Below, one piece after another: positions 2,293-20,949 of a stretch of DNA of 64,000 nucleotides; the first letter of the stretch is position 1; every line of letters starts with the position of its first letter. Position numbers and translations under genes: made by a program. The notes below the pieces were generated by a model, which was not told the DNA's origin, searched no databases, and saw only the letters and a list, made by a program, of their open reading frames with translations. This DNA is from Nitrospira sp. (GTDB taxonomy: Bacteria; Nitrospirota; Nitrospiria; Nitrospirales; Nitrospiraceae), in contig JACOEK010000005.1 of the NCBI GenBank assembly GCA_024998595.1, positions 62,001-126,000 of the forward strand. The letters run 5' to 3'.

Positions 2293-2340
2293 CGTGAACC
2301 TTTCCGGAGATGGCGCGACAGACGGGTACGAGGTGATCTC

Positions 2341-5323: not shown

Positions 5324-5779
5324 TTACTTTGCGGCCGGCTTTGGGAGCAACCCCTTGACGATTTCCGACGTGAGGGTTGGCGGAACCGGCGCGTCTTCGT
5401 CCGCTTCGGGAGTCGAGGCTTCCACACCCCGTTTCTGAACGCCGGCGATTCCTGCTGCGCCGAGAGTGGCGCCCTGCATCCCGGGCATGACCCGGCTGCC
5501 CGCTGGTTTCCGGCAGTTCATGACCTGATTGGTCTGGTTGTCGACTGTGCAACAGAGCATCGTCTCTCCGCCGCAAAACAGAACATGGGTGTAGGGTTTG
5601 TTGCCCATGAGGTCTTGTTGCATCTGATCGTTACAGGACGCGCCGAAATTCGTGTTGAGGTCCTTGGTGTTGCAGCTCTGCCAGGTGCTCTTCGGTTTGG
5701 CCGACGCAGGAGAAGGAAGGGTCATAGCCAGAGTGAATAGACTGATCGCGCTGATGAGGAATACTCGGTCCGATCTCAT
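5324..5779 (-). CDS. Small secreted Cys-rich protein with C-terminal KRGVE motif
   Basis: A 151-residue protein, start supported by AAGGAGG nine bases upstream of ATG 5779. A signal peptide ends at ASA (residue 27). The mature part has six cysteines between about residues 36 and 89 (QSCN, ASCN, LFCGG, LCCTV, NCRK), suggesting three disulfides. Near the C-terminus it carries QKRGVEASTPEADED with Arg117 (codon 5429-5431), 35 residues from the end, followed by an acidic, proline-rich tail. It is the last gene of the minus-strand exported block. Family not recognised; it resembles the proteins at 8651 and 9699 in size, cysteine content and tail type. Confidence 0.8.
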   Translation of the reverse strand: MRSDRVFLISAISLFTLAMTLPSPASAKPKSTWQSCNTKDLNTNFGASCNDQMQQDLMGNKPYTHVLFCGGETMLCCTVDNQTNQVMNCRKPAGSRVMPGMQGATLGAAGIAGVQKRGVEASTPEADEDAPVPPTLTSEIVKGLLPKPAAK

Positions 5780-5868
5780 AGAAACCTCCTTGATGATGAG
5801 TGATAGGCCGCCGACCCTATGTGGTGAACGTCATGTCTTCAATGCACCATAGCGGCTCTTGTCTTCGA

Positions 5869-7101
5869 CTACTGAATGATGGGCGGTGACGCGAGGCCGA
5901 AGACGACGAGTTGGAACTTCTCATTTGCCGTGGCCGCCCCGTCTCGCCTCGTCGTGAGCAAGGTCACGCCGGAGCCATCTTTGAAAATACCGGCAAAAAA
6001 TCCGCTCGTGGTTTGAATGGAATACGTGCAGTTGCCCTGGTCGATCAGGCGGAACTTTTCCCATGCCTGCACCTGGGTTGCATCGATGTGAAAAATAGGG
6101 GAAGACCCTCCGACGCAAGGGCCGCCGAAGAGGCCGCCGCAATCGGGGGTCCAGTATTTCCGGTCGTACTTTTCGACTTGTCCGCCGCCGCCGAGGGCCG
6201 TGACATAACGTCCGCTGGCGGTCTGAAACGCGAAGGTCCCATCGCCCTGACGGATCACTTTGAGTTTCATCTCGGCTTCGCTGGGATGGCCGTTGAGGCT
6301 AAACCAGGTCTTGCCTTGATAGGTGGAGGCAGCGAGCAATTCGCTGTCGGCGGCCATGATGCCGTACTCGTAGCCGGACCCCGGATCGCCGCACTTGACG
6401 ATGCGGAACTGTTCCCAGGCTTGGACCTGTCTGGCGTCGCTGTGAACGGCGTCCTGGTACCGCCCTCCGGCACCCACCGCGGTGAGAAAATTTCCTTTAC
6501 TGGTGCCGATGCCGTAGTAGGGGGGAGGATAGCCGCCCATATACACGAGGCGGAACCGCTCCCAATCTTTGGGCTGGGTCGCGTCGGTATGCAATACATT
6601 CGCCGTCATGCCACCGCCGTTGACGGCCGTGAGATAGTTGCCGCTGGCGGTTTGAACAAGTTTATCGTAAGGAGAAGGCGGGGTGGCGATGCCGATTTTA
6701 AACTTTTCCCAGGCTCCGGCCGACGTGGCGCCGGTGATGACCGTCGGATCACCCGTACGTCCCCCGCCGTTGACGGCTGTGAGGTAATAGCCTTTTTGTG
6801 TCCTGAAGGCGAACTCTCCGGGATACGCGCTGGTGAAGGCCGTCGATAGGGTGCCCAGCACGGCCGTGCCTGCCGTGGTGCCAGGAAGGAGGCGCGAAAC
6901 CCCTCGTTCCTGGACCTCGCCCGCCGTTTCCGATTGAGCCACCTCTTTCGCGGCCTGAGACTCGTCGGGAATCACGGGCACTTCCCGTGCTGCGGTGTCG
7001 AGCGCCGCCTGCTCCTTGCTGTGATCTGTCGCTGCACAGCCGGCCAGCCCCAGACACAAGGCCGCCATGCCTATCAATGTGACGACTGCTGTATGTCGCA
7101 T
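5869..7101 (-). CDS. Lipoprotein with six fascin-like beta-trefoil repeats and N-terminal EVQERGV motif
   Basis: A 410-residue protein beginning at ATG 7101 (GGGAGGTTGAG upstream). The signal ends in a clear lipobox, LGLAGC (Cys22). An acidic/alanine linker leads to GEVQERGVSR with Arg66 (codon 6904-6906). The rest is six repeats of about 45-60 residues with the pattern F-x-(I/F)-x-T-x-x-G-x-Y-L-T-A-x-x-G-G-G ... W-E-x-F-x-(I/L), diagnostic of fascin-like beta-trefoil folds; six repeats make two trefoils. Such modules bind ligands such as sugars or filaments. Repeat 5 has an insertion containing two cysteines. It is a paralogue of the protein at 10319. Lipidation would depend on an Lnt such as the one encoded at 20946. 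Confidence 0.85.
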   Translation of the reverse strand: MRHTAVVTLIGMAALCLGLAGCAATDHSKEQAALDTAAREVPVIPDESQAAKEVAQSETAGEVQERGVSRLLPGTTAGTAVLGTLSTAFTSAYPGEFAFRTQKGYYLTAVNGGGRTGDPTVITGATSAGAWEKFKIGIATPPSPYDKLVQTASGNYLTAVNGGGMTANVLHTDATQPKDWERFRLVYMGGYPPPYYGIGTSKGNFLTAVGAGGRYQDAVHSDARQVQAWEQFRIVKCGDPGSGYEYGIMAADSELLAASTYQGKTWFSLNGHPSEAEMKLKVIRQGDGTFAFQTASGRYVTALGGGGQVEKYDRKYWTPDCGGLFGGPCVGGSSPIFHIDATQVQAWEKFRLIDQGNCTYSIQTTSGFFAGIFKDGSGVTLLTTRRDGAATANEKFQLVVFGLASPPIIQ

Positions 7102-7459
7102 CTCAACCTCCCGGTTCGAAAACAATGGTGCACCCCGCCGAAGGTGTCCCGGCAGGTCCAAACGTTCCTGAGTGAGTCGGGCGGATTGGCGGTTGGGTTC
7201 AGGAAGAGCTCAGGAGCCCATCGAGGAAATCGCCAAATATACAGACATGTCATGTGGCGGCGTACATGCGTGACCGCGCCATCTGCCGATTGCGTCGTGG
7301 GTTGAGACAGGCTTGGGGGCGTCTTGGCCATCGAGACTCGGGTGCTACAGAAGCGTGTTCGTGATGGGGGCATTGTCTTTGGTGGCACCGTCAACGTATC
7401 TCAGTCTGTCAGTCTCCACGCCTTCCGGCTCCATGCGTACGACGGCCCATTCCTCCCGT
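7102..7459. other. Intergenic gap, no gene seen
   Basis: About 358 bases between two exported-protein genes. Neither strand carries a reading frame with a plausible start, ribosome site and composition. It includes a short palindromic patch (CATGACATGTC near 7245) but no convincing promoter pair. A promoter for the fascin-like lipoprotein may lie here. Confidence 0.4.
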
Positions 7460-8479
7460 TCATCGATGCTCGCGTACTGTGGGGCTATCAAGATAGGGAT
7501 ACCATCGGAGCGTCTTGGTCATGGGATATTCATAATAAGCCTGACAATTGTCGTTCATGGCTTTCAAATTGCCCTTGATGAGGGTGGTCGTGCCGGTGAG
7601 GAGATGTTGTGACGAGGGACCCCCGGCCACCGTAAATCCGCATCCGGCCGGGAGACAGTTCCACAACATCTCCGTCGCCACGTTGTCCTCGTCGTAAAAC
7701 GTTTCGGTCGGACGCGAGACCTTGTGCGACCAGCTCACTTCCTGACGGGCCCAGGCAAAGGGGCTGATGGTGGTGCGCGCTCCGGCGCGAGTGCTGAATC
7801 GAAACTTGTGATATTGCTGATCCGGCGCGTACCAAGCGAATAGGATTTCGCTTTTGCCGACGGCGTCGCATTTGCTGATCAAGTCGAAGGAGAACGGTCC
7901 GATACTGACGTCGTAGAGCGGATCGAGCGGGGCTTGCCAGTTTACGGCAAACGTTTCGAACCCTCCGGCGGCTTTGGCCTCCCGCAGAGAGACCGTAATC
8001 GTCATGTTCCGCGGCTTTCCGTCCCCTTCCTTGTCATTATGGAGAAATCGGTTACCGGAGGCACGCACGTACGACTGGGTGATGCGTTCATTGCCGGCCG
8101 GGGAATAGTAGCCGATGCTGATTTCCACCGGTTGTGTCACCGGCAGGTTGGGGGCGACGGTGACCAGCGTGCTCACGCTTTTGAAGGCCAGCCGCAACGC
8201 GTTCGCCACTACGGTCAAGTTGGCGGTGGGAGCCTGGTATTGGGCTTGAACAAACGTATTCGCGGTTGCTCCCCGGACCTTGTCCAAGATGCCTCGCTCC
8301 TGGATCTCGCCGGTCTCCGCCTGTGATGCAGGGTCAGTAAGCGGCAGTTGTTCTCCCTGGACTGACGGGGGAGCGATTGGCGGTTCGTCGTCCGCCCATG
8401 CGCTCTTGACGCATGTTGTGGTCAGCACGAGTGCCAGAATTGCGCATGAGATTCGCGAGATCACTCCGGTCGCCATCAT
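7460..8479 (-). CDS. Secreted protein of unknown function with N-terminal EIQERGI motif
   Basis: A 339-residue protein; ATG 8479 is preceded by GGAAGGAACATCG. The signal peptide ends near SAWA (residue 29). A 30-residue Pro/Gln/Glu-rich linker leads to GEIQERGILDK with Arg62 (codon 8294-8296), matching the EVQERGV sites in its neighbours. The mature region (about 75-339) looks like a beta-rich globular domain, including ISIGYYSPAGNERITQSYVRASGN and an LFAWYAPDQQYHKFRFSTRAGA stretch, plus three cysteines in the second half that may form a disulfide (NCLPAGCGF). I do not recognise a family. Placement and motif tie it to the same exported set. Confidence 0.78.
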   Translation of the reverse strand: MMATGVISRISCAILALVLTTTCVKSAWADDEPPIAPPSVQGEQLPLTDPASQAETGEIQERGILDKVRGATANTFVQAQYQAPTANLTVVANALRLAFKSVSTLVTVAPNLPVTQPVEISIGYYSPAGNERITQSYVRASGNRFLHNDKEGDGKPRNMTITVSLREAKAAGGFETFAVNWQAPLDPLYDVSIGPFSFDLISKCDAVGKSEILFAWYAPDQQYHKFRFSTRAGARTTISPFAWARQEVSWSHKVSRPTETFYDEDNVATEMLWNCLPAGCGFTVAGGPSSQHLLTGTTTLIKGNLKAMNDNCQAYYEYPMTKTLRWYPYLDSPTVREHR

Positions 8480-8650
8480 CGATGTTCCTTCCACAGTGTT
8501 ACCTTCTTGTATTATCCGCTTCTAAAAAGGCGAAGTCTGGGTCTCGCCCTCGATGTCTCGCCGTAGAATCGTGGCATTTGGGCGGGTCCAGCATCCTCAT
8601 GAGCATCTCCTGCTGAGGTGAGTAACCTCATCGCTCGCTGCCTCTGCCTC

Positions 8651-9082
8651 TTACTTGCTCTGTTCTTCCGGCACGGTTGGAGTCGATGGTTCCTGCTCAC
8701 CGTCGACACCTCGTCTCATGATCGGCGCATTCATGCCGGCCCTGGGGAAGCGTGGATTGTTCGGCGTGGGCGACACGACGGGCGCATTTTGCAGCATGCC
8801 GCCGGGGACCCTCGTCACGCCGCCCCTCGGACCCTTGAAGGCTTCGATCTGCTCGCAATCTTTCCCTCCCTGCGCATTCTGCACGCAGCACATGTAATCG
8901 CCGCTGGGAATACATTCGACCCAATGTCCCGGTTTGTCGGGACAGGTTGCCACTCCGATGGTGACGGGGCCTTGGCAGTTGTCGGGATTTTTGATCGGTA
9001 CGGCCAGCGCCGGGGCGGCGGCGACAATCACCCCGGACAGGAGTATCCCAAGCCTGGTTGTGTAAGAGAGGGGTCTAATCAT
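8651..9082 (-). CDS. Small secreted Cys-rich protein with C-terminal MRRGVDG motif
   Basis: A 143-residue protein with an excellent ribosome site (AGGAGG, then CCACC before ATG 9082) and a signal peptide ending at ALA (residue 27). Cysteines cluster at about residues 35-75 (DNCQG, ATCPD, VECIPSGDYMCCVQ, DCEQ), giving six. The C-terminus reads PIMRRGVDGEQEP with Arg124 (codon 8711-8713), 20 residues from the end, followed by a polar acidic tail. The tail is nearly identical to that of the protein at 9699 (PIMRRGVEGDQP), although the upstream domains differ. Family not recognised. Confidence 0.8.
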   Translation of the reverse strand: MIRPLSYTTRLGILLSGVIVAAAPALAVPIKNPDNCQGPVTIGVATCPDKPGHWVECIPSGDYMCCVQNAQGGKDCEQIEAFKGPRGGVTRVPGGMLQNAPVVSPTPNNPRFPRAGMNAPIMRRGVDGEQEPSTPTVPEEQSK

Positions 9083-9133
9083 GGTGGCCTCCTTCTATCT
9101 GTGTGAGTCGGGCACTCGCCCCGGTGACAATCT

Positions 9134-9676
9134 TTATCGGCGCTGCATCGGCGTACACTCGCAACTTTGGCTGCCGGCCGGACAAGCGCCGGGACAAAAC
9201 GGGGACAACAATTGGCATTCCGCTTGTGTATGGCAGGAGCAACGGGTGACCGGAAACGGAACCTGGTAGCCGCACAGATTTGGCGGGAGAGCCGGCATCG
9301 GACCGCGGCTCAACGGGACGAATTCACAATGGGTGCTTCCGACCGGACAGGAATTCGGAAAGAGCGCGGTCAGGCTCTGGCAGTCAGCCTGATTGAAGCA
9401 CTTGCATTGGGTCATCATGTGCGTTTCGGTATGGCAGAGCTGCGGCGGCGGACCAGCGGGAACGGGGACAAGTGGTTTCCGCTGGAATTCTTTTTTGAAT
9501 TCTCCCAAGGCGCCTGGTGTCACGCCGCGCTCCTGGACTTCCTCACCGGCTGGATGGCCGGAAGGAGGCGCCTCGCCTGTTTGTTCCGTGGCCGCATAGG
9601 CTGGATGGCCGGTTGTGAGCACGAAGGTGAGCATCACCCAGCCCCATGCAACTACATGTGTCGTCTTGGTGTCCAT
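9134..9676 (-). CDS. Secreted Cys-rich protein with duplicated Cys module and N-terminal EVQERGV motif
   Basis: A 180-residue protein starting at ATG 9676. The signal peptide ends near AYA (residue 28), then a 20-residue linker leads to GEEVQERGVTPG with Arg50 (codon 9527-9529). The C-terminal 110 residues hold two similar Cys-rich modules, each of the form C-x-C-(F/H)-x-Q-(A)-(D/E)-C-Q-x-L ... C-P-x-G-(S) ... C-E: CKCFNQADCQSL ... HCEF and CSCHTQAECQLL ... CECT. That gives about a dozen cysteines, probably all disulfide-bonded. This is an internal duplication. Its closest site neighbour is EVQERGVTPK in the protein at 10319. Function unknown. Confidence 0.8.
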   Translation of the reverse strand: MDTKTTHVVAWGWVMLTFVLTTGHPAYAATEQTGEAPPSGHPAGEEVQERGVTPGALGEFKKEFQRKPLVPVPAGPPPQLCHTETHMMTQCKCFNQADCQSLTALFPNSCPVGSTHCEFVPLSRGPMPALPPNLCGYQVPFPVTRCSCHTQAECQLLSPFCPGACPAGSQSCECTPMQRR

Positions 9677-9698
9677 GGTTACAGTCTTTCGCTCCCGG

Positions 9699-10193
9699 TT
9701 ACTTCCCTTCTTTCTCCGAGGACGTCGGTTGGTCGCCCTCCACTCCGCGCCGCATGATCGGCCCGCCCGGAGCCGGTACAGGCATTCGTCCTTGCGGGGG
9801 CGGTACCGGCTGAAGCTGCCCTTGGACACCGCCGGGAGGAAGTCTCATCTGGCTCTGCTGCTCTGTGCCCATACAATCTCTGGTCGTCCCCTGATGGGTC
9901 CCGGTGGGTGTGCTGGCCGTGCATGAATGGCCGAGGCATGCTTCCAGGCTTGATTCGGTAAATTGCACGGCACCGGACGGTCCGAAGTGCTCTTTTCCGA
10001 GTTCGTCCACCCAGCGACAGGCGCATTTGCACGACCAATACGTGTTTTTCTTAGGTCTAGCCCAACTGACGTCAGGTTGCGCCAGCAGACCGAGAACCGT
10101 GCACAAGCCCGTACCAACCATGACAAGCCAAAACCCTCGAGTTCGTGCGTTTGTCGAACCTACGATTCCCATGCAGGTGGTGGAAACTCTCAT
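9699..10193 (-). CDS. Small secreted Cys-rich protein with C-terminal MRRGVEG motif
   Basis: A 164-residue protein; GGAGGAGG precedes ATG 10193. The signal region is long (hydrophobic core about residues 21-39, GFWLVMVGTGLCTVLGLLA), with likely cleavage near SWA. Cysteines occur at SCKCACRW, EACLGHSC and RDCMG. A Gln/Pro/Gly-rich stretch leads to PIMRRGVEGDQP with Arg149 (codon 9747-9749), 16 residues from the end. It ends 22 bases before the next gene's ATG, so it is in one transcript with the protein at 9134. The family is not recognised. Confidence 0.78.
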   Translation of the reverse strand: MRVSTTCMGIVGSTNARTRGFWLVMVGTGLCTVLGLLAQPDVSWARPKKNTYWSCKCACRWVDELGKEHFGPSGAVQFTESSLEACLGHSCTASTPTGTHQGTTRDCMGTEQQSQMRLPPGGVQGQLQPVPPPQGRMPVPAPGGPIMRRGVEGDQPTSSEKEGK

Positions 10194-10318
10194 GACGGCC
10201 TCCTCCTGTGATTAAGTACGATCTTCCCGAGACCCTGCGCATCATCGTCCGTTGGTGGTCAGCGTGGTCAATGGTCCGATGAAAGGTTTCAACACTCTGA
10301 CGCTCCCTGCGCCCACCA

Positions 10319-11485
10319 TCACAGCCCCACCATGACCAATTCGAATTTGGCGTTATAGCCAATCGACGGCGCGGCATTCGGGTCGCTGATCCTGGTCGAA
10401 ATCGAGGAGGACCCTGGACCAACAGCCAGGTAAAAGCCGCTGACCGTCTGGACGGTATAGGAGCAGTTAGGCTGTTCGACAATTTTGAACTTCTCCCAGG
10501 CCTGAACCTGTCGTGCGTCCGTATGCAGGTTGTCGCCGCTGGCGATGCCCCCTCCGCCTACTGCCGTGAGATAGTTCACCCCATTGGATGTTTGCAGCGC
10601 ATAAGACCCGTCGCCTTGCCTGATGAGCCTGAATCTGGATCCGGCTTGCAAGCCGCTGTACGCGGTCATGGCCTGGCTGGCCATGCCTCCTCCGTTGAAT
10701 GCGGTGAGGTAGCTCACAAAATCACCTTTCCCGGGAATATTTCCTGTCCCGGTGGGGCGAATGGCGTATTGGTAGCCGGACCCCAAATCACCGCATTTCA
10801 AGAAGTAAAAGTACTCCCACGTATTGGCCTGGACCGCGTCGGTATGGAACGCATCGGTCGATTTTCCGCCTCCACCGAGTGCGGTCAAAAAGTGCCCGTC
10901 GTAGGTCTTGATCGTGAAGGTGCCGGCAGCGCTGGGCCCGTCGATTCTGAACAGCGCAATATCACGTTGCGGTGTCTGGAGTTCGGTCTGAACACCCTGT
11001 GTCGTGTTGGGCGATCCACCCAGTCCACCCACCGCACTCACGAAGTATCCGCCGCTGGTTTGAATCGTAGTGTAATCCGGTTGGACCGTTGCGAGCCTAA
11101 ATCGCTGGTTGGGTCCGATCACGCTATCCAGTGTGATGACGGCGTCGATGCTGTGGTGCCCTCCATCACGGGCGGTCAGAGGCGTGTTCTTCAGGTACGA
11201 TCGTATGGCGAAATCGCCCGGTAACAAGCCGAACGCCGGCGGGTTCGATGCCGTGCTTGGTGTGGACGGAATCGGCGTCAACACCTGTGGTGAGGTCAGG
11301 CCTGGTCGGAGGGGTTTCGGAGTGACTCCCCGTTCTTGCACTTCGTCGGTCTGTGGTTGCCCCGTCGTGTCATCACTCTGGGCGATGGCGGCGGGCCTGG
11401 AATTCGATGAAGGCGATTCCGCAGCACAGCCGGCCCATCCCGCGAGCAACCAACCGGCGACAACAATGGCTAGATACCGGTTCAT
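10319..11485 (-). CDS. Probable lipoprotein with six fascin-like beta-trefoil repeats and N-terminal EVQERGV motif
   Basis: A 388-residue protein from ATG 11485 (GGAGGTGCAGC upstream). The signal ends LLAGWAGC, a fair lipobox (Cys20), though Trp at -3 is unusual. The linker contains DEVQERGVTPK with Arg52 (codon 11330-11332). Six repeats follow with the fascin-like pattern (for example HFLTALGGGGKSTDAFHTD and NYLTAVGGGGIASGDNLHTD with AWEKFKIV), two trefoils in total. It is clearly related to the protein at 5869, sharing the order of lipobox, linker, motif and repeats. Trefoil repeats 3 and 5 are the best conserved. Likely an outer envelope binding protein; ligand unknown. Confidence 0.83.
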   Translation of the reverse strand: MNRYLAIVVAGWLLAGWAGCAAESPSSNSRPAAIAQSDDTTGQPQTDEVQERGVTPKPLRPGLTSPQVLTPIPSTPSTASNPPAFGLLPGDFAIRSYLKNTPLTARDGGHHSIDAVITLDSVIGPNQRFRLATVQPDYTTIQTSGGYFVSAVGGLGGSPNTTQGVQTELQTPQRDIALFRIDGPSAAGTFTIKTYDGHFLTALGGGGKSTDAFHTDAVQANTWEYFYFLKCGDLGSGYQYAIRPTGTGNIPGKGDFVSYLTAFNGGGMASQAMTAYSGLQAGSRFRLIRQGDGSYALQTSNGVNYLTAVGGGGIASGDNLHTDARQVQAWEKFKIVEQPNCSYTVQTVSGFYLAVGPGSSSISTRISDPNAAPSIGYNAKFELVMVGL

Positions 11486-11589
11486 GCTGCACCTCCAACG
11501 TCCGATCGTGAGGCACTCGGAGATCTCACACTTCCGCGACTGCATCGTCCCGTCTCGTCTTCGCATCTACATTCGGGACAGTTGTGGTC

Positions 11590-11603
11590 CGGGCTTCGGC
11601 CCG
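11590..11603. terminator. Small GC hairpin with TTCG loop between two exported-protein genes
   Basis: CGGGC TTCG GCCCG forms a five-base-pair stem with a stable tetraloop. It lies in the 188-base gap downstream of the DsbA-like gene (minus strand). No T-tract follows on the minus strand, so termination is uncertain; it could equally stabilise a transcript end. Confidence 0.3.
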
Positions 11604-11673
11604 TCTATCAGTCTTTATTGGGCTGCGGGAGGCCTGGTTGCGCATTGTCCCCCAGTCTCGACCAACGACAGGT

Positions 11674-12429
11674 CTAGGGCTTGTGGCCTGCCCGCGCGAT
11701 CAATTCCTTCAGCCCGTTCAAGTCCAGCGCGCCCGGGACCAACTCCGTTCCGACGATGAATCCGGGCGTGCCGCTGATGCCGAGGGTGCGAGCCAGGGCG
11801 CGATTGGCGTCGATGACTGTTTGCCACTCGGGGTTGCGCATATCGGCTTCCAGTTTCTTCGTGTCGAGGCCCACGTCTCCGGCCATGCTCAACAGCGATT
11901 CTTTCGTGATCTCGCCTTTGAACGCCAACATGGCTTCGTGGAACACTTGGTGCTTGCCTTGCGCTTTGGAGGCCAACGCGGCTTTCGCCGCCAGTTCCGA
12001 CGCTTCGCCGAGGATGGGGAAATCCTTATAGATGACGCGCACGCGCGAGTCTTCGTGTTGCAACTGCGTCACGGCGCCCGCGGCGCGTTTGCAGAAGCCG
12101 CAGCGATAATCGAAAAATTCGACGAGTGTGATAGCTCCGGAAGGATTGCCGCTCACGGGGGATGCGGGATCATTGAGCAATTCGTGCTGATGGGCGGCCA
12201 GCGCCACTTTCTGCTTCGCTTTTTCCTCCACCTCACGTTTCGCTTCCAGCGCCTGCAGCGATTGCTCGATCACTTCCGGGTGGGCGCGGATGTATTGTTC
12301 AATTACCTGCTCCATTGATTGCCGTGCGGCAGGATCGAGTTCCGCTGCTAGGGTTGGTCCCGGCACAGTAACGTGCGCGGTCAACAGGGTCAGTACGGCG
12401 GCGACAATGAGGTGACGGCAGCGATTCAT
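11674..12429 (-). CDS. DsbA/ScsC-like periplasmic thiol-disulfide oxidoreductase
   Basis: A 251-residue protein; GAAGGAGAG precedes ATG 12429. Signal peptide to about LAA (residue 29). A helical N-terminal extension (about 30-90, QVIEQYIRAHPEVIEQSLQA) resembles the oligomerisation arm of ScsC/DsbG-like proteins. The thioredoxin fold follows with the active site CGFC (Cys110, Cys113) in VEFFDYRC and the cis-proline loop GISGTPGFIVG at about 214-224. By family it forms, shuffles or reduces disulfides in exported proteins. Its place immediately upstream of five genes of which three are Cys-rich suggests it acts on them. It carries no Arg-Gly signature. Confidence 0.9.
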   Translation of the reverse strand: MNRCRHLIVAAVLTLLTAHVTVPGPTLAAELDPAARQSMEQVIEQYIRAHPEVIEQSLQALEAKREVEEKAKQKVALAAHQHELLNDPASPVSGNPSGAITLVEFFDYRCGFCKRAAGAVTQLQHEDSRVRVIYKDFPILGEASELAAKAALASKAQGKHQVFHEAMLAFKGEITKESLLSMAGDVGLDTKKLEADMRNPEWQTVIDANRALARTLGISGTPGFIVGTELVPGALDLNGLKELIARAGHKP

Positions 12430-12687
12430 CGGCTCTCCTTCAAGTCTGGTCATGATCGATCTCTTGCGTTGGGTTGTAGGGTGGACGATCTGAGACACCG
12501 GCCGATCCACTTTCGTAACAAGCTCTGCATGGCCGGTATGTCGTGAGCGAGGGACGGAAGGTTCAACCGATGTGCGGGTGTTGCCGGAAGGGCGTTGCAA
12601 GCTGGACAGTCGGCAGATTGTGCAATCATGCTGCGCCTTGCCATCCCGCGCCGGATAAGGGTTTGCGACCGGTCTGCAGGACGCAGG

Positions 12688-12717
12688 AGCATACGCAGCC
12701 CTACAGCTCTGGGTCAA
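12688..12717 (-). promoter_or_regulatory. Candidate promoter upstream of the DsbA-like gene
   Basis: On the minus strand TTGACC (12717-12712) and TATGCT (12693-12688) are 18 bases apart. It sits in the 318-base gap 12430-12747, about 260 bases before the ATG; the rest of that gap shows no gene or other structure. The long leader lowers confidence. Confidence 0.35.
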
Positions 12718-12747
12718 CTGCGGTATCGAACAATACTGGTATTAGTC

Positions 12748-13215
12748 TCAGAACCGGCGCAGCGCTTTTTCTGCCAACGCCTTCACCTTTTCTTCATCGC
12801 CCGCGGTTTCCTGAATCGACACGTTGATGGTCGTGTGGCCCTTCTTGACGTAGAGATTCACGTAGTTGAGCCCATGCATCCCTCGGTCCGTGAAGGCCTC
12901 GTCTCCGAGCCCTTTCACCGTGACGGGATTCTTGGAGATGGCCCTGCCTCGCCCAATGGCCTCGGATGGAAACACCCACACCTCCATCGCGTCCTTGCCA
13001 TTGGCAAACTCGTAGTTGCACCAGGCGGCATCGCCTTCCTTGTCGCCCGTCGGTTTGCCCTTCAACGCACCGACGGTCTGCTCGACTTCGGCAATCGTCA
13101 GGAGGGCACAAGGATCGATATTGGGAGGCGCTGCCGATATTGGTGTTGGCGCGACCGAAACGAAAACAGCGAATGGCAGGCATGTGAATAAGACGCGCCG
13201 AGAAATTCGTATCAT
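12748..13215 (-). CDS. Small secreted protein, DPC-motif paralogue (DUF3558-like)
   Basis: A 155-residue protein taken from ATG 13215, which gives a standard signal peptide (MIRISRRVLF, cleavage after ISA near residue 28). An in-frame GTG at 13263 overlaps the stop codon of the upstream gene and is an alternative start. The mature part begins DPCALLTIAEVEQTVGALKGKPT and has GLGDEAF and a C-terminal DEEKVKALAEKAL helix. It matches its upstream neighbour at 13260 throughout, so the pair is a tandem duplication. Two cysteines probably pair. The fold resembles DUF3558-type surface domains, tentatively; function unknown. Confidence 0.75.
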   Translation of the reverse strand: MIRISRRVLFTCLPFAVFVSVAPTPISAAPPNIDPCALLTIAEVEQTVGALKGKPTGDKEGDAAWCNYEFANGKDAMEVWVFPSEAIGRGRAISKNPVTVKGLGDEAFTDRGMHGLNYVNLYVKKGHTTINVSIQETAGDEEKVKALAEKALRRF

Positions 13216-13259
13216 TGCCGACTCTTTCACGTTGCACCTTGGAAAACCAACTCGGCGAA

Positions 13260-13721
13260 TCACAACCGGCCTAGCGCTTTTTTCCCCAGGGTCTTCAGTT
13301 TCTCTTCGTCGCCAGGACTTTTTCTCGTCATGAGTACAATCAGAGTCGCTCCTTTCCTGATGTACAGATCCACGGCCTCCGGGTCGACCTTGCCCCGATC
13401 CATGAAAGCTTCATCACCCAGTCCACTGACCATGACCGGCTGTTTCGCATCCTTGTGCAACGCCTTCGACCAGGACGCCTCAGAAGCCCAGATTTCGAAC
13501 TCATTTTTCTCGTCGGCAAAGTCGTAGCCGCATCTCACCCCATGGCCCAGTGTTTCGCTGGTCGGTGTGCCTTTGAGCTTGCCTATCACCTGTTCGACCT
13601 CTGCCGTGGTCACCAGCGAACAGGGATCTGGCGGGCCGGCCTGGCTTGGCTGAGCGATGAGCGCGCTGCAGAGGCACAGTGATGCGTACAACAACAGGAG
13701 AGGACGTGAGCGTCGCCGCAT
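13260..13721 (-). CDS. Small secreted protein, DPC-motif paralogue (DUF3558-like)
   Basis: A 153-residue protein with a signal peptide ending near SQA (residue 27). It starts its mature part with DPCSLVTTAEVEQVIGKLKGTPT and ends DEEKLKTLGKKALGRL, closely matching the protein at 12748. Shared landmarks are the two cysteines, GLGDEAFMDRG and the charged C-terminal helix. The gene lies 61 bases downstream of the DPW-family gene at 13783 and is followed almost without gap by its paralogue. Neither paralogue has the Arg-Gly signature. Role unknown. Confidence 0.75.
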   Translation of the reverse strand: MRRRSRPLLLLYASLCLCSALIAQPSQAGPPDPCSLVTTAEVEQVIGKLKGTPTSETLGHGVRCGYDFADEKNEFEIWASEASWSKALHKDAKQPVMVSGLGDEAFMDRGKVDPEAVDLYIRKGATLIVLMTRKSPGDEEKLKTLGKKALGRL

Positions 13722-13782
13722 TGTGTTTCCCTTCTCGATGAAAGCAATCGTGTGTGCAGATCACGCGTTGTGAGTCAATCCA

Positions 13783-14766
13783 TCATCGAACGACTCCCGG
13801 ACTGAATGCCTTCGGGCCTGGTTGGATGGCCTTGTTCATGGCGATCACGGTGAATTCCACCGGTGCAGACCAGCGCGTCGGTTTCGGGGACAACACTTGT
13901 GCACTGATCCGGTAGGCACCGCGGCCGGCGATCATCGCCGGGCCTTTGCCGTTTCCAGGAGCGCCCCACCCTGTATACCCGGTCGGTGAGGTCGCCTCTG
14001 CCACGTTGACCGGCAGGTTGTTGAAGACCGCCCAATTGCCCTGACCATCCCGTCGCTCAAGCCTCACCATGAAGCCCGTGACCTGCATTCCCGGCGGGGG
14101 AAGAAGTTTAATGGGAATGGTCGTGTTCTCCAGGAACGAGGCGTTGACGGCAGGAAGAACGATCGCAGGCGTGACCACGGCAGGTCCTTGCTTGGCCGCG
14201 CCCAGGAGTTGTTGATTCTGTTTTTGCAGAGCGGCGGCCGCGTCCATTTCGGCCTTGAGTGCGGCATCCCGCTGAGCGATGAGGGGCGGGCGATTGTAAC
14301 TAAAGCCTGTGGAATTGGGTAAGGAAGATCCGGCGAATCCGTCTCTCAACCAGTCGAGCCAGAAACGGGCTCGAGTATTTTGTACTTGTCCACTCACATT
14401 GAACGATCCATTTGAACAGGCTACCTTTCCCGCGCCAAGAGGCGGGCCAAGCCAGGGATCGCTCGGACAGGTCAGGGTTGTCGTGGCGGTGGCGGAGAAG
14501 CCCTGGACCAGGGACACATGCACCTCTTCTCTTGCCATTCCCGTGCGGGGATCATACGAACCACGAGAGTCCCAATTCACGAATCCGGCCGGCACTGCGC
14601 TACACGAGGTCGTGACATGATAGCTGGAGAGGGCGGCCTTGAAGTTTGCCTCGACACGGGGTGGACCACATTGTATGGCGGGCTGTTCTGCATATGCGGA
14701 ATCGACGATGACTAAGATAATGGCCGTTGCCATCAACAGCACACTGCTACGCCAATGAGGGCGCAT
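13783..14766 (-). CDS. Secreted DPW-family protein with C-terminal Fn3-like domain and PKAF tail
   Basis: A 327-residue protein; AAAGGAGGATCT precedes ATG 14766. Signal peptide to AYA (residue 26). N-terminal domain (about 30-125) has C33, the F-x-A-x-x-S-x-Y pattern, C55 and the family mark TCPSDPWLG (Asp103-Pro-Trp105) with a later Cys. A helical linker of about 60 residues (ALKAEMDAAAALQKQNQQ) leads to a beta-sandwich domain (about 225-315) with FMVRLERRDGQGNW, GYTGWG and AYRISAQVLSPKPTRWS. It ends IQPGPKAFSPG. The proteins at 18703 and 19924 share all of these. Likely an extracellular structural or binding protein; no Arg-Gly signature. Confidence 0.8.
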   Translation of the reverse strand: MRPHWRSSVLLMATAIILVIVDSAYAEQPAIQCGPPRVEANFKAALSSYHVTTSCSAVPAGFVNWDSRGSYDPRTGMAREEVHVSLVQGFSATATTTLTCPSDPWLGPPLGAGKVACSNGSFNVSGQVQNTRARFWLDWLRDGFAGSSLPNSTGFSYNRPPLIAQRDAALKAEMDAAAALQKQNQQLLGAAKQGPAVVTPAIVLPAVNASFLENTTIPIKLLPPPGMQVTGFMVRLERRDGQGNWAVFNNLPVNVAEATSPTGYTGWGAPGNGKGPAMIAGRGAYRISAQVLSPKPTRWSAPVEFTVIAMNKAIQPGPKAFSPGVVR

Positions 14767-14814
14767 AGATCCTCCTTTTATGACCGAATACTTTTCAGAC
14801 TGTTCCATGTTTGA

Positions 14815-16122
14815 TCATGGCGTCTTCTGCGGTTCAGATCGAGTATCGGCCTCAGTGCCTTGTTTCACGTCTTTCTCTTCGACTCCGCGTGGCCGGACTA
14901 GGGGGCCGCCGGCAGCACCTCCCTGCGAGGAAGTCGCCGGAGGTCGAATGACCGACGGCCCGACGCCTACGGGTGCCGAAGGAGTCTGCATGATCGATGC
15001 GCCGGGCAGCGGTGTTTGCTGCAGCGCAGGAGTATGAGATTTTTGCGACTGGGTTCCTTGCGCCACCCCGAGCTGGAACTGGACGGGATTGCTCCAGGGG
15101 CCCGGAGGGGTCTTCATGGCCGATCGTGCCCGCACCTGCCAGCGACCGGGATAGGCTCCCGTGACGATCGGAGCCACCAGATATCCCTGGATCAGTTTCG
15201 GGGTGTCCACGGCAATGATGGTGACATAGGGATAAGAATCTTTTTGAGGTGCGGGTGCGTCCAGGTAGCGCAGTTCCAACTCGGCCACATTGGTCACGCC
15301 GACTTTAGGAGGAAGGGCGGCGATCAGCAATTGTCCCTGCACGACCCTCTCCTGCGCGACCGGCTTCGTGATCACGAACAGATCGTCAGGAACCCTCAAA
15401 TTCCTGGCCTGGGGATTCAAGGGCATGGATGATGGAGGCGCCTGTACGAGTGGAGTGGCAAGCTTTCCCGCCGGGGCACCGACACGAGCCGGCGTCGGGG
15501 CGCAGATCAGCCCGAGGGAGTCGATGAAGAGCCCCGCACGCACACGAAACCCCGATGCGATCTCGCCCGGCCGGCACCCATGCGGATACGGTCCCTTGGT
15601 CACTCGTTCTTCAGCGGTCGCAGTGGGATTCCCAAAATCGAACAGAGCGATGGCCTGAGCAGGGCTCAATGAGATGCAGTGAATTTCGACGTATTGCACG
15701 GGCGGATTCGGCGATCTGACGGTCTCGACGTACCAAGACTGGATGGCGAGGCTCTTGTTGCCGGATTCCCAACAGGTTCGCTGCCGGTCTTGGCCCCCTC
15801 CGCTGGCGCCGAAGGACGGACCGATCGTCGGCGATCCAAAAGCTTGTGAGCCTCTCAACCAAGGCGCGCAGATCGGCGCGATGCGATCGACCCATTCTCC
15901 TGTTCGACCGGCCAAGCCTACAAGATAGGAGCCTTGCGGACACTCAGCCCGGAACAGATTCCCGCCGGGGCCACCGACCAACTCCAGATCGGTGGCAGAG
16001 GACAAGAAGGGCCAGAAGCAAAGGCCCACGAGGAGAACAACAGCAAGCAGCGAGCGGTGGCACGGTGCAGCAGGCTTCCAGCCAGGCGGTACCCATCGAG
16101 CTGAAGCATCGATTGAGATCAT
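14815..16122 (-). CDS. Secreted two-domain protein with Fn3-like domain and C-terminal PRGVEE motif
   Basis: A 435-residue protein. Start ATG 16122 overlaps the stop codon of the preceding gene (ATGA), so I reject the longer frame. Hydrophobic export signal at about residues 24-45. Two related segments, CPQGSYLVGLAGRTGEWVDRI...IC and HGCRPGEIASGFRVRAGLFIDSLGLIC, resemble the jacalin-like 'G-x-x-G-x-x-x-D-x-I-x-x-I-C' repeats found in other secreted proteins. A beta-sandwich domain (about 255-360) with ELRYLDAPAPQ and GRWQVRARS matches that of the protein at 16119. It ends with VRPRGVEEKDV, Arg412 (codon 14887-14889), exactly 24 residues from the C-terminus, as in its coupled neighbour. Function unknown. 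Confidence 0.78.
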   Translation of the reverse strand: MISIDASARWVPPGWKPAAPCHRSLLAVVLLVGLCFWPFLSSATDLELVGGPGGNLFRAECPQGSYLVGLAGRTGEWVDRIAPICAPWLRGSQAFGSPTIGPSFGASGGGQDRQRTCWESGNKSLAIQSWYVETVRSPNPPVQYVEIHCISLSPAQAIALFDFGNPTATAEERVTKGPYPHGCRPGEIASGFRVRAGLFIDSLGLICAPTPARVGAPAGKLATPLVQAPPSSMPLNPQARNLRVPDDLFVITKPVAQERVVQGQLLIAALPPKVGVTNVAELELRYLDAPAPQKDSYPYVTIIAVDTPKLIQGYLVAPIVTGAYPGRWQVRARSAMKTPPGPWSNPVQFQLGVAQGTQSQKSHTPALQQTPLPGASIMQTPSAPVGVGPSVIRPPATSSQGGAAGGPLVRPRGVEEKDVKQGTEADTRSEPQKTP

Positions 16123-17312
16123 CGATGGTCTCCCGGCTCCGTCGGCGTAGGTGAGGAATGATGGCCCTCGCGGGTGTCTTCTTCGAGACCACGCGGACGA
16201 ATGACCGTCGTGCCGGCTCCGAATCGTTCCGATGGACCCTTGAGAAACGGCGAAGCCGGCGATGGCGCCTGGATCGATTGGTTTTGTTGCCCCGGTACGA
16301 GATTGAACGACGCGGGGGCGCTCCAGGGCCCGGCCACCGCCCCCTGAGCGATCATTCGTACGCGCACTTCCCAATGGCCGTAGTTGAGCCGCGTCACCTT
16401 CGGATCGATATAGTGACCTTGCAGCAATGTAGCCGTGTCCATGGCGGGAATCGTATTGACGAAACGAGGCTGCCCTGCCGGGGTGTCGAGCCACGCGAAT
16501 TCCAGCTCCGACACCGGCTCTTTCCCCACCATCGGCGGCTGAATCTTGACCAGCAGTTGGCCGACCACCACGGTGGCTCCCGACGCAGGGCTGAGGATTC
16601 GAGGTATCTGTCGCGAAAGAATGGCATCAGAGGTTTTTGGAGCACCGGGGGTGAAAGGGCCTACGCCGGCGCCCTGGGGCTTCGACAGGGTTGTTTGAGA
16701 CGGGTCGAACTTTTGCTGTGCCGCCATGGCGATCTGATACTGCTTGTCGAGCGCCGCGCGCTGCATGGGATTGAGTTTGAACGACAGCGGCAGGCCGGGA
16801 GCGTCCTGCAGCAATTGTTGGTACGCCATGGAGAGGTATCCCTGAAACGAGGGCGGTGCCGCCTGTCTCGTCACGAGGCGACAGGGACCGTTGGGCAGGC
16901 CACGCCATGGGTCGGAGCCGCATTGCATGGTGGAGTGCACGGTTCCTGTGGCCGTTTTACCAAACTCCGTCAACCCGAGCGTCATCGTTTCAAACGTTGC
17001 CTTTGTATTCGGTTGGTGGCTTCCCTGGGCTGTCCAGTTGACGCTGCCATATTGCAGCTGTTCGATTACTCCCTTGGAGTGGGTTTCAAAGAGTAAACAC
17101 ATTCCTGTGGCCACATAGTCGGAACTCGATGCTTTGTATGTGCCGCTGATCGTGCTCACCGAGCAGGCCATGGACAGTTGACCCACGACGGCCGGTTCGT
17201 TCGCCGCAGCGATTCCGACGGGGATCGTTGCGGCACATTGAAGAGATGCGCAGCACAGCATGCGTTTCCAGCCCGGTAGCCGTTGCGTCCCTCGCGCCTT
17301 CGTGAACGCCAT
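16119..17312 (-). CDS. Secreted DPW-family protein with Fn3-like domain and C-terminal PRGLEE motif
   Basis: A 397-residue protein with a signal peptide (cleavage near AAA, residue 37). N-terminal domain has C50, a Y-x-A-x-x-S-x-Y-x-x-T-G-x-C pattern (Cys72) and QCGSDPWRG (Asp134-Pro-Trp136). A linker with QYQIAMAAQQKFDP leads to a beta-sandwich domain (about 245-350) with SELEFAWLDTPAGQP, LLQGHYIDPKV and GHWEVRVRM, matching the protein at 14815. The tail reads VIRPRGLEEDTRE with Arg374 (codon 16191-16193), 24 residues from the end. The stop overlaps the next start. This gene links the DPW family to the Arg-Gly-tailed family. Confidence 0.8.
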   Translation of the reverse strand: MAFTKARGTQRLPGWKRMLCCASLQCAATIPVGIAAANEPAVVGQLSMACSVSTISGTYKASSSDYVATGMCLLFETHSKGVIEQLQYGSVNWTAQGSHQPNTKATFETMTLGLTEFGKTATGTVHSTMQCGSDPWRGLPNGPCRLVTRQAAPPSFQGYLSMAYQQLLQDAPGLPLSFKLNPMQRAALDKQYQIAMAAQQKFDPSQTTLSKPQGAGVGPFTPGAPKTSDAILSRQIPRILSPASGATVVVGQLLVKIQPPMVGKEPVSELEFAWLDTPAGQPRFVNTIPAMDTATLLQGHYIDPKVTRLNYGHWEVRVRMIAQGAVAGPWSAPASFNLVPGQQNQSIQAPSPASPFLKGPSERFGAGTTVIRPRGLEEDTREGHHSSPTPTEPGDHR

Positions 17313-17327
17313 CTCGTTTCTTTCCTC

Positions 17328-18662
17328 TTACGGGGCACTGGCAAGGGGCACCGTGCAAGGCACCGGAATCCAGCGGGGACCAATGTCTGCCGGGTTCGGC
17401 CGGCAAGCGGGCAAGACGCCACGTGATTGTGTTGACGCTGATCGAATGGCTTCCTGCAGTGTCTTGTCGGGAACTGTCGTTGCCAGGTCGGTGCCGCGAG
17501 ATGTTTCTGAGCGTGAAGCCCGCGCGTCGAAACGCCTGCCGTCGGGTGTCAGGAGAATGAGGTGTATCTGCCCAGACTCGCCCGGAACGCCCATGGCGAG
17601 CGGGTGCTGGAGCGATTCGTTGTGTCCCGAGCGACGGGCATGCAGGAGCACCGTCGGTTGGCCCTCCTTGGCCAGCCCGATCTGGACGTCGAGCACCGGT
17701 TGCACGTCGTAGGTGCCAGGCGAGAGGACGGCGGATGCACCCGTTGCAGTGGTGACGTAAAGCGGACGGTCGATCGTCAATACAATCGGCTGGGTGATCT
17801 CCGGTGCTCCTTCTTCCAGTGCGGCTGCGTCCGAGGTTTCCCCTCTCTCGGCTTGCGTCTCATTGGGCTGTTGGCCCGATGTCTGCTCCTCTTGTCCCTC
17901 CACACCTCTTGCGAATATTCCGGACCGAGCCAGATTGCTCGCTGCTGTGTTCGACTTGGGGAGAGTCGTCTGCGGCTGCACAGTCATGGCTTGAAGGCGC
18001 TGGGACTGGGTGATCACTTGGGATTGTTGCGCTTGCGCCGTCATATTCTGCACACGCGACTGTTGCAATGCCGGCTGATTTGCCGCCTGGTATTGGTTGA
18101 TCAGTTGTTGCTTGAGGGCAGGGGAGATCCTTTTTCCCGTCAGAGGAAATGGTCTGGTACCGATGTTGGGGAACGCGGTCTTCAGATCGTCCGGCATATA
18201 TTCGCCAAAACGACTGCAGGTGCCGTCCTGCAGCCACGGATCCGTCGTGCAGCTTCCTGTCCAATACATGAAGATCTTGCCTCCCGGCGCCCGGTCTGGC
18301 AGGAAAGGCTCGTACCCAGTGATGGTGAGGGATTCGGATGCATTCGGACGATCCCGTCTCGTTTCCGACGGCGTCCAGCTCCCTTCCCAAGTGAACGTCA
18401 TTACGCCGGGTCTCGCGGTGCTGGTACATCTCATCGAGAAAGGGTATTTCGCTGCGCCTTTCGGGGCGGCCAGGAATGTCGGAGCGGTGGTCATGACCGC
18501 GTTCGAGCAGTTGATCGGGACTTCCGCATTCCCTTCATGCACGGAAAGCAATTGCCCGAGTGCGTCCACATGCGTGGGAGCTGCGGGTATGCTCTGCAGT
18601 ACCGCGATCCCGAGCACTCCTGCGATCCATCCTCGGCCAACGTGTCTTGCTGCATGTCCCAT
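17328..18662 (-). CDS. Secreted DPW-family protein with central ARGVEG motif
   Basis: A 444-residue protein with an export signal (hydrophobic about residues 12-28). The N-terminal domain holds INCSNAV, SMRC and SCTTDPWLQDGTC (Asp141-Pro-Trp143). Residues of about 180-240 are Gln-rich and probably helical or disordered (QQSRVQNMTAQAQQSQ). The Arg-Gly signature sits here in mid-protein, GIFARGVEGQEEQ with Arg252 (codon 17907-17909), followed by 40 acidic residues. A second beta-rich domain (about 300-390, LTIDRPLYVTTATGA and LHLILLTPDGRRF-like strand) ends with two cysteines. Cleavage at Arg252 would split the protein into its two domains. Family otherwise unknown. Confidence 0.78.
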   Translation of the reverse strand: MGHAARHVGRGWIAGVLGIAVLQSIPAAPTHVDALGQLLSVHEGNAEVPINCSNAVMTTAPTFLAAPKGAAKYPFSMRCTSTARPGVMTFTWEGSWTPSETRRDRPNASESLTITGYEPFLPDRAPGGKIFMYWTGSCTTDPWLQDGTCSRFGEYMPDDLKTAFPNIGTRPFPLTGKRISPALKQQLINQYQAANQPALQQSRVQNMTAQAQQSQVITQSQRLQAMTVQPQTTLPKSNTAASNLARSGIFARGVEGQEEQTSGQQPNETQAERGETSDAAALEEGAPEITQPIVLTIDRPLYVTTATGASAVLSPGTYDVQPVLDVQIGLAKEGQPTVLLHARRSGHNESLQHPLAMGVPGESGQIHLILLTPDGRRFDARASRSETSRGTDLATTVPDKTLQEAIRSASTQSRGVLPACRPNPADIGPRWIPVPCTVPLASAP

Positions 18663-18702: not shown

Positions 18703-19806
18703 TTATTTTGCGAACGATTTCACGGCCGGTTGGAAAATCTTACTGGTCGGCGGCGCCATGACGCCGAACTCAACCCAGTCGCTCCATCCGGACTGTTGCG
18801 GCGTTGTTACCTGGGCACTCAACCGCCATGCGCCAGGTATTGATAAGAAGGCCGGCGGGGCCCCCCCGCCGAAGCCCGTATACCCGGTCGCCGACTCCGC
18901 TTGAGCGGCTCCGACGGGCAGCGTGGCATGCGGTACCCATTGTCCGTTGGAGTCTTTCCGTTCTAGCCTCACCATGTATCCGCTCACACTCTTCGCCGTC
19001 TTGACGGGGGTTCCGTCGAGGCGAACTTCCGTATCGGCCCATGGTTGAGGGGGCGCTAACCTGATCGAGATGGGAGATTGGTTAAAGAACCGCTGCCCCG
19101 CGGTGGGCGCCATGATGATCGGAGAGAGGCTCATACGATAGGGCGTCAGCGTCTGCGTTGCTGAGCGCAGGCGTTTCTCGGCCTGTGCCTTGGCCAATGC
19201 CGCTGCCTCGGCTTTCAAATCCGTGTCCCGTTTCGCCGCTAAGGCAGTTCGTTCTGCCGGCATCAAGACCCAGGCCGACATGGGTTTGTAGGCTCTCCAG
19301 GCATTGAAGAGATCGCTGAGAGTGGGGAGAGGTTTCCCATCCTGGTACTTTCTGGGGTATGCCTCGGAGGGACTATTGTCCATTCGGTTCAGGATCTGGC
19401 ACTTCACCCGGAGACTTTCCGGGCTGAACGGAGGACCGTCCATCGTGAGCCAGGGATCGGACGGACATGAATAGGTGGTCCGCCAGGTCCCGTAGGGATG
19501 ACTCGGCTGTGAGATCGGAGCGGGAGTCACTTCAATGAGTTCCTCCGCGACATTGTTCGAATAGGCCCCGTGAACTGTGTAGGGAAACGTTCGCGGTGCT
19601 CCCAGTGAGCCGGATGTCGTGCAGGTTCCGGTTGACAGGTATTGCGCCTTGGTCGAAGAGAAGCTCCCGACGAGGTTCTGAGTAGCGGTGCTGCAGGGCG
19701 CGGAGCCGACGCCAGTGAATCCGAGACTGAAGGCATGGCCCGGCACGAGGACGGTCATGGCCAGTCCGAGACCGAAGGCGAGGCAACGAGCGCGATGAAT
19801 GGTCAT
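18703..19806 (-). CDS. Secreted DPW-family protein with Fn3-like domain and PKSF-like tail
   Basis: A 367-residue protein with a signal peptide (cleavage near HAFS, residue 27). N-terminal domain has C38, SFSSTKAQYLSTGTC (Cys62) and SCPSDPWLT (Asp117-Pro-Trp119). A coiled linker (LKAEAAALAKAQAEKRL, about 190-215) precedes the beta-sandwich domain with YMVRLERKDSNGQW, GYTGFGGG and WRLSAQVTTPQQSGWS. It ends FQPAVKSFAK. It is closest to the proteins at 13783 and 19924. A ribosome site, AGGATGAGGAGCC, lies before ATG 19806. Gap of 40 bases to the next gene. Confidence 0.8.
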   Translation of the reverse strand: MTIHRARCLAFGLGLAMTVLVPGHAFSLGFTGVGSAPCSTATQNLVGSFSSTKAQYLSTGTCTTSGSLGAPRTFPYTVHGAYSNNVAEELIEVTPAPISQPSHPYGTWRTTYSCPSDPWLTMDGPPFSPESLRVKCQILNRMDNSPSEAYPRKYQDGKPLPTLSDLFNAWRAYKPMSAWVLMPAERTALAAKRDTDLKAEAAALAKAQAEKRLRSATQTLTPYRMSLSPIIMAPTAGQRFFNQSPISIRLAPPQPWADTEVRLDGTPVKTAKSVSGYMVRLERKDSNGQWVPHATLPVGAAQAESATGYTGFGGGAPPAFLSIPGAWRLSAQVTTPQQSGWSDWVEFGVMAPPTSKIFQPAVKSFAK

Positions 19807-19923: not shown

Positions 19924-20949
19924 TTATGGTCCGAAGGATTTTGGAATTCGCTGAATGGTGTTATTCGGAGCCATCACCACGAACTCAACGCCCTGACTCC
20001 AGCCAGTTTGTTGGGGGGCCGAGACTTGGGCCGTCATCCGATACGTTCCGGGAGAGGCCATCAGAGAAAGGCTTCTCCCATCCGGCCCGCCGGCGCCCCA
20101 TCCAAGGTACCCAGAAGGGGACGATGCCTGGGCGAGGCCTATCGGAAGGGTGGTGACAGGAGTCCAACTCCCACCCGGGTTTTTCCGTTCGATTTTTACT
20201 GTGTAGAGGGTGACCGTCAGCCGTCCAGGAGGCGGGGCAAGTTTGATCGGCACGGTTGTCATGCTGAGGTAGCGCGACCCCGCCGTCGGGGAGACCAGCA
20301 AAGGGGCGAGATTCTCGAGCAGGGTCGACCCTGGCTGCACCCGTTGCTGGAGCTTCTGAGCCTCCTTTCGGGCCGCTTCTTGTGCGAGACGCGCCGTTTC
20401 GGCAATGGCCTGTTGCTCCGCGAGGAGGTCTTTCGGTCGTTGGGCCACAAGGGCCGCGCGATCGTAAGGGAATCCGGTTGTGTTTGGTTTCAAGGACGTT
20501 TCAAAACCACCGCGCAGAAATGCGGTCAAATAGGCGAGGGTTTCGGCTTCTCCCCCAGCGGAAAAGGCCGGTTGTGTGCAGGCTGCTTTTCCCGTGACCA
20601 GCCAGGGATCTTCTACGCAGGCCAATCTGGTTTGAATCTTTCCCCGATAGGGCGGGTTGCCGTTCAGCATGATGGTTTCTTCCACCTTTGCCAGTCCCGG
20701 TGCATAGGCCCCTTCTGACGTCCAGGGAATCGGGATGACTTCCACACGATTCTCATACTCCAACCGTTGGTCGCATCGTCCTGACATGCGATAGGTGGAC
20801 TTAGCCGCTGTGAACTTCGCTTGAATCGATTCAAGATGACAGCCGACCGTCGTCAATGGATAGATCCTGACGACGACGCCTGCTGCACCGGCTTGTCCAA
20901 CGAGAGCCGACAGTATGAACAATAATGCGACGCAGCTTTTCCCCGTCAT
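19924..20949 (-). CDS. Secreted DPW-family protein with Fn3-like domain and PKSF tail, coupled to lnt
   Basis: A 341-residue protein. Start ATG 20949 overlaps the stop codon of the N-acyltransferase gene (ATGA) and is preceded by GGAAGGAACC; the much longer open frame upstream is the shadow of that gene. Signal peptide to GAAG (residue 23). C37, FTAAKSTYRMSGRC (Cys59) and ACVEDPWLV (Asp114-Pro-Trp116) define the family. A charged coiled linker (about 175-205) leads to the beta-sandwich domain with YTVKIERKNPGGSW, GYLGWGAGG and YRMTAQVSAPQQTGWS. The end is NNTIQRIPKSFGP. Likely extracellular; role unknown. Confidence 0.82.
   Translation of the reverse strand: MTGKSCVALLFILSALVGQAGAAGVVVRIYPLTTVGCHLESIQAKFTAAKSTYRMSGRCDQRLEYENRVEVIPIPWTSEGAYAPGLAKVEETIMLNGNPPYRGKIQTRLACVEDPWLVTGKAACTQPAFSAGGEAETLAYLTAFLRGGFETSLKPNTTGFPYDRAALVAQRPKDLLAEQQAIAETARLAQEAARKEAQKLQQRVQPGSTLLENLAPLLVSPTAGSRYLSMTTVPIKLAPPPGRLTVTLYTVKIERKNPGGSWTPVTTLPIGLAQASSPSGYLGWGAGGPDGRSLSLMASPGTYRMTAQVSAPQQTGWSQGVEFVVMAPNNTIQRIPKSFGP

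Follow-up and report, generated by a model that had tools for sequence, protein, structure and literature searches.

The nearest experimental precedent for the locus described here is the trimming of fimbrial lipoproteins in Porphyromonas, where Arg-gingipain (RgpA/B, clan CD) processes FimA and Mfa1, and where Mfa1 depends for its polymerisation on this enzyme, which cuts it after Arg49 (PMC5954841). Gingipains are members of clan CD, the caspase-like superfamily (PMC3482391), but of a family other than C14. The C14 family includes the orthocaspases, or prokaryotic metacaspases, for which WD40 and DUF4384 are known partner domains and which are treated for the most part as proteases of cell death or stress (PMC5756287, PMC8283722, PMC3501461); in the literature that we searched, no dedicated set of motif-tagged exported clients was found for them. 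The PEP-CTERM/exosortase (EpsH) system is one in which a tag was paired with its enzyme by phylogenetic profile (PMC1569441), and in polymorphic toxins caspase-like peptidases release domains of exported proteins (PMC3482391).

The locus that we describe in Nitrospira can be compared with each of these systems. Its likeness to gingipain maturation lies in an exported clan-CD cysteine protease, an Arg placed some tens of residues past a lipid-modified Cys and the predicted removal of an anchor peptide; it differs in that the Nitrospira enzymes belong to C14 and not to C25, in the phylum, and in the clients, which are trefoil lectins, Cys-rich proteins and peptidases, not pilins, and which have C-terminal sites too. 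Pfam and NCBIfam gave no match to a FimA/Mfa1-type fimbrillin among these clients, and we do not claim membership of the type V fimbriae/gingipain system. With the orthocaspases the locus shares the catalytic dyad, the acidic S1 residues and the WD40 and DUF4384 partners. As in PEP-CTERM, a short portable tag is found in many exported proteins and is matched to an enzyme by phylogenetic profile, but the Arg-Gly tag lacks a C-terminal transmembrane helix, sits in a soluble linker at either end of the protein and is matched to another enzyme class. In polymorphic toxins, finally, the peptidase lies in the same polypeptide (in cis), whereas the Nitrospira caspases would act in trans on many proteins. 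The enzyme architecture and the matching of tag and enzyme by phylogenetic profile are already known.

The window, that is, the whole stretch of 64,000 nucleotides that was analysed, contains an island of genes for exported proteins in which the earlier note had described ten Arg-Gly-(Val/Ile/Leu) sites, all of which were found at the residues it named. All ten are encoded on the reverse strand. Four have an N-type form: EVQERGV at 6898-6918, in a lipoprotein with trefoil lectin-like (DUF7910) domains (gene 5869-7101); EIQERGI at 8288-8308, in an exported protein without a known domain (gene 7460-8479); EVQERGV at 9521-9541, in a Cys-rich exported protein of two modules (gene 9134-9676); and EVQERGV at 11324-11344, in a lipoprotein with RicinB-like trefoils (gene 10319-11485). 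Five have a C-type form, three of them in small Cys-rich exported proteins (VQKRGVE at 5420-5440, gene 5324-5779, with the Arg-Gly pair invariant in 8 cross-genus orthologues; IMRRGVD at 8702-8722, gene 8651-9082; IMRRGVE at 9738-9758, gene 9699-10193) and two in other exported proteins (VRPRGVE at 14878-14898, gene 14815-16122; IRPRGLE at 16182-16202, gene 16119-17312) whose genes overlap slightly at their ends. The last, IFARGVE at 17898-17918, lies between domains of an exported protein (gene 17328-18662). A minor correction is that several start codons of the raw open reading frames lie too far upstream.

It is important to consider that a tripeptide as frequent as this one could recur by chance. 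The background consisted of a sample of about 101,000 aa from the window genome together with whole-genome pattern searches, and in that sample the bare RG[VIL] is not rare, at 1.13 per 1000 aa, in agreement with the previously estimated one per 900 residues. Its presence in 10 of the 16 island proteins, against a shuffle mean of 3.5 (at least 10 in 9 of 20,000 shuffles), is only moderately unusual. The longer E[VI]QERG[VI], whose four occurrences in neighbouring genes had been held to be non-random, has exactly four matches in the entire 4.23 Mb genome, all of them within the cluster (window 6898-11344), and the reversed pattern has none there; such DNA-pattern searches were made with strict forms, since a relaxed motif would drown in chance matches. 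An extended pattern, [VI][QMRFL]xRG[VIL], is present in 10 island proteins and has two matches in the 101,000 aa of background. This pattern was composed post hoc, with the sites already seen, and for this reason the independent tests of conservation, polarity and co-distribution weigh more. The extended motif, its invariance and the restriction of its clusters to genomes with the system contradict chance recurrence, whose likelihood we regard as practically negligible.

Conservation, which supplies the strong evidence, was assessed in aligned cross-genus orthologues of the ten island families. Poor conservation in such orthologues had been named beforehand as an outcome that would refute the signature; instead, the Arg and the Gly are 100% invariant in all ten families, while the linker flanks are conserved at about 37% (per-family means 29-52%; Wilcoxon p = 0.001 against Arg/Gly), with positions -3 to -1 of the motif at about 75-81% and those further out at 16-57%. 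A functionless linker would not be expected to keep this pair fixed while diverging around it, and the Arg-Gly signature is, as judged from sequence comparison, functional. The same observations bear on the reading that these linkers were copied from one ancestral segment by duplication or domain shuffling and have no function: the genes are clustered and some of the families, such as the trefoil lectins, are paralogous, but the motif stays fixed while the linker diverges across genera and 22 families, and a single duplication cannot explain both N-type and C-type positions. These facts contradict shared ancestry as an explanation, and we consider it very improbable. Homologous islands were identified in other genera of the family and the order. 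When one family of the cluster was used as a marker, it matched 11 of the order's 236 genomes, which represent 7 of 37 genera; in the collection of named genomes, a Cys-rich family used as the query brought up two close relatives only. Two of the genomes discussed, G012 and G002, are of the same genus as the window genome.

Our study identified the motif in 103 proteins, grouped by single linkage into 22 families, from 16 genomes of the Nitrospiraceae and their relatives. The signature stands as it was first described, but that description proved too narrow, as the residue after the Arg may also be Ala and other genera are included. The N-type form is (V/I)QER(G/A)(V/I/L), or more broadly [VI][QTE][ES]R[GA][VIL], and is usually found 10-55 residues past the hydrophobic signal segment; the C-type form is (I/V)xxRG(V/I)(E/D), or more broadly [VIL]xxRG[VIL][ED], and most of its sites lie 13-36 residues ahead of the C-terminus, with tails that are mostly acidic. 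These short tails gave no Pfam or NCBIfam match to the conserved beta-sandwich CTD of Type IX secretion. No NCBIfam sorting model matches the motif proteins at E <= 1, no Pfam family covers the motif, and our literature searches, whose scope left out most subscription journals, gave no description of an Arg-Gly motif of this kind.

In distant genomes we also observed an undescribed, recurring exported domain, LxxPxxFxxxDG...PGxYxVE...LLLPDGxxLEAxGSxSGIxSR(G/A), whose end carries the motif in a relaxed form (L062 7749-8528, L067 2852-4651 and L075 14237-16381). A motif-bearing exported protein (L058 3827-4324) has a weak match to DUF2345 (VgrG-tail-like), and the similar tail of the first of these three could be a beta-helical spike. 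In genome G029, DIQERGL is present in a lectin-type exported protein (L117 4774-6093) encoded about 470 kb from the island, which indicates that the tag is also in use outside it.

The two forms mirror each other in charge, with an acidic flank toward the end of the protein and a neutral or basic flank toward the folded domain. In all 12 N-type and all 11 C-type families the terminal flank is more acidic than the domain flank (p = 0.0002 and 0.0005), with a mean charge per residue over the 16-17 residues of the terminal side of -0.16 (N) and -0.19 (C), against +0.08 and +0.06 on the domain side. Acidity thus depends on which terminus is near, whichever way the motif points, and this polarity would be easier to reconcile with end-peptides that are removed than with a docking motif that has a direction. 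In the docking alternative, the Arg would enter a pocket of a shared receptor, for example the beta-propeller of the WD40-caspase described below or that of a neighbouring YVTN-type propeller, and the exported proteins would be held at the surface uncut. A short, position-independent linker motif with a strictly conserved Arg-Gly-hydrophobic core is compatible with this, as is the presence of two propeller proteins in the island; it has to be weighed against the acidic stretch, which is N-terminal of the N-type and C-terminal of the C-type motif, and against the fact that most motif proteins can be read as a domain plus an end-peptide or as domain-linker-domain. We consider docking unlikely, a weaker alternative that remains open.

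Two exported caspase-like (C14) proteins flank the island, each with a signal peptide and a PF00656 domain in Pfam. The first, an exported caspase-DUF4384 of 767 aa on the reverse strand, enters the window with its first 287 residues (the signal peptide and most of Peptidase_C14; 1-862), and its gene continues to the left (G000:C8:60640-62931); its RG(I/V) linker site, before DUF4384, belongs to the part that lies outside the window. The second is an exported WD40-Ig-caspase (Peptidase_C14) of 1031 aa at 26020-29115 on the reverse strand, in which the RG(I/V) site REARGIA (26941-26961, same strand) lies upstream of the caspase domain, is invariant across orthologues and stands 309-310 residues from the C-terminus in those compared. 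The linker site is present in every orthologue compared of both caspases, and most of these retain the His/Cys dyad as YSGHG/YAGHG and DSC(H/Y)SG. Metacaspases are the nearest solved structures for both proteins (E 1.5e-25 for caspase-DUF4384), and the S1 acidic residues, the Asp of ND/xD and the Asp of DxC, align with those of solved metacaspases. For the WD40-caspase region, a structure modelled from one sequence reached a pLDDT of only 35 and lends no geometric support, so that the assignment of the active site relies on sequence alone. By their S1 residues both enzymes are predicted to be of the Arg/Lys type, and cleavage after Arg or Lys is inferred. The characterised non-animal C14 members all prefer Arg or Lys at P1 (PMC5756287, PMC8283722).

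Another Arg-specific exported protease, encoded elsewhere, could nevertheless be the one that cuts, with the caspases as co-regulated clients or regulators. Both caspases carry the motif and could be substrates, and some islands encode S1 peptidases; in these, however, a positional reading finds Ser where trypsin has the Asp behind its preference for Arg, which makes them weak rival enzymes, and none was seen in the island of the window genome. The two C14 proteins are predicted exported proteases of the Arg/Lys type that co-occur with the motif, although no genome-wide protease scan was made, and we find it doubtful that a different protease is responsible. The S1 peptidases themselves have an N-type site before the domain and a C-type site after it (L029 6516-8000, L056 2058-3581 and L057 15132-16625).

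The co-distribution of motif and caspases was examined in 236 genomes of the order, with a motif cluster defined as at least two matches of [DE][VI]QER[GA][VIL]. Caspase-DUF4384 was identified in 30 genomes, the WD40-caspase in 25 and both in 20 (p = 2e-17). The clustering in related genomes that the earlier note proposed to look for was found, with motif clusters in 13 of 35 caspase-positive against 2 of 201 caspase-negative genomes (Fisher p = 1.6e-10), and in 13 of 25 genomes with the WD40-caspase against 2 of 211 without it (Fisher p = 6e-13). One caspase-negative exception, G002, has a genuine motif cluster in a fragmented assembly of 410 contigs; in the other, G079, the matches fall in no open reading frame of at least 60 aa. 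Motif clusters are thus confined to caspase-holding genomes with this one fragmented-assembly exception. It is important to note that, with related genomes and partial linkage between the genes, the Fisher p-values overstate independence and are descriptive only, although in several genomes caspase-DUF4384 is at a distance of about 80-120 kb or is placed on a different contig. A prospective check of genomes picked only for their caspases was positive in five (G075, G076, G078, G093 and G185), where the neighbours of the WD40-caspase are motif-bearing exported proteins; in G179 there are none beside it, and the cluster, whose exported proteins have five QER sites, is on another contig. Among the candidates that we rejected are two QERAV matches in caspase-free genomes, which lie in a phosphoglycerate-mutase-like protein (REVQERAV), and a DNA match in G038 that lies in none of the listed open reading frames of at least 90 aa.

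Other genes accompany the caspases. Directly upstream of the caspase-DUF4384 gene are an anti-sigma factor (zf-HC2; 912-1589) and a sigma-70 family (ECF-like) sigma factor (1586-2230), both on the reverse strand, followed on the opposite, forward strand by an exported DUF4384 protein (2278-3987) with the interdomain site YPRGIPG (PRGIPG codons from 3391); relatives of this protein have VIPRGVG near their end, and with these sites the motif reaches the sigma/caspase unit. The island also encodes, on the reverse strand, a DsbA/ScsC-like exported thioredoxin (11674-12717) and an apolipoprotein N-acyltransferase (Lnt) homologue (20946-22658). Three further island proteins (13783-14808, 18703-19806 and 19924-21411) have no Arg-Gly site and share a different C-terminal tail, approximately (I/V)Q(K/R)xPK(M/A/S)FG, located at or near the end and also present in relatives from other genomes, which is possibly a second tag. 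We do not claim a known defence system for the island, for which PADLOC gives only generic caspase and repeat models.

The proposal that the motif is a processing, sorting or docking signal common to one exported set is supported by its conservation in orthologues and its clusters in caspase genomes. Without proteomic proof, our results favour processing over sorting and docking, on account of the mirrored acidic polarity, the co-distribution with caspases and the RG sites in the caspases' own linkers. We consider it reasonably probable that the motif is a maturation or shedding site cut by dedicated exported orthocaspases. Through the portable site [VIL]-x-x-Arg|(Gly/Ala)-[VIL], the folded domain of an exported protein would be joined to a short acidic end-peptide; one half of the set would have this peptide at the N-terminus, past the signal peptide or lipobox, and the other half at the C-terminus. 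After Sec export, caspase-DUF4384 and the WD40-Ig-caspase would cut after the Arg, the acidic peptide would be lost and the domain would be matured or activated; the lectin lipoproteins of genes 5869 and 10319 would be freed from their lipid anchor, and the caspases' own linkers would probably be processed too. Our analysis shows the motif with its conservation and polarity, its presence on exported proteins, its co-distribution with the caspases and their metacaspase-type active site; that cleavage occurs, that it is due to these caspases and what purpose the trimming serves are inferred. Several points count against cleavage by these caspases: there are no cleavage data; the N-type QER and the C-type (R/S/P)RG(V/I)(E/D) consensus differ in a way that one protease need not require; the near-invariant small residue past the scissile bond is stricter than metacaspases usually need; motif proteins and caspases are partly linked genetically in related genomes; and a large share of the caspase-positive genomes, 22 of 35, fall short of two strict motif matches.

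Genomes with motif clusters nearly always encode exported caspases of the Arg-cutting type, and for this reason the tag is probably their trimming site: Nitrospira-type bacteria tag dozens of unrelated exported proteins, and the tag probably marks the point of trimming by caspases. The chances are about even that this is the first defined orthocaspase client set, with exported C14 enzymes acting in trans on dozens of unrelated, tagged exported proteins that have acidic N- or C-terminal propeptides, possibly under sigma control. To our knowledge, little has been established about what bacterial caspase homologues cut under physiological conditions, and these enzymes are mostly considered in connection with cell death; here, sequence-defined candidate substrates with a predicted scissile bond adjoin two caspases, which makes the role of these enzymes directly testable. 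If the proposal is true, environmental Gram-negatives would have a tag-and-trim route of protein maturation that can be compared with processing by gingipains.
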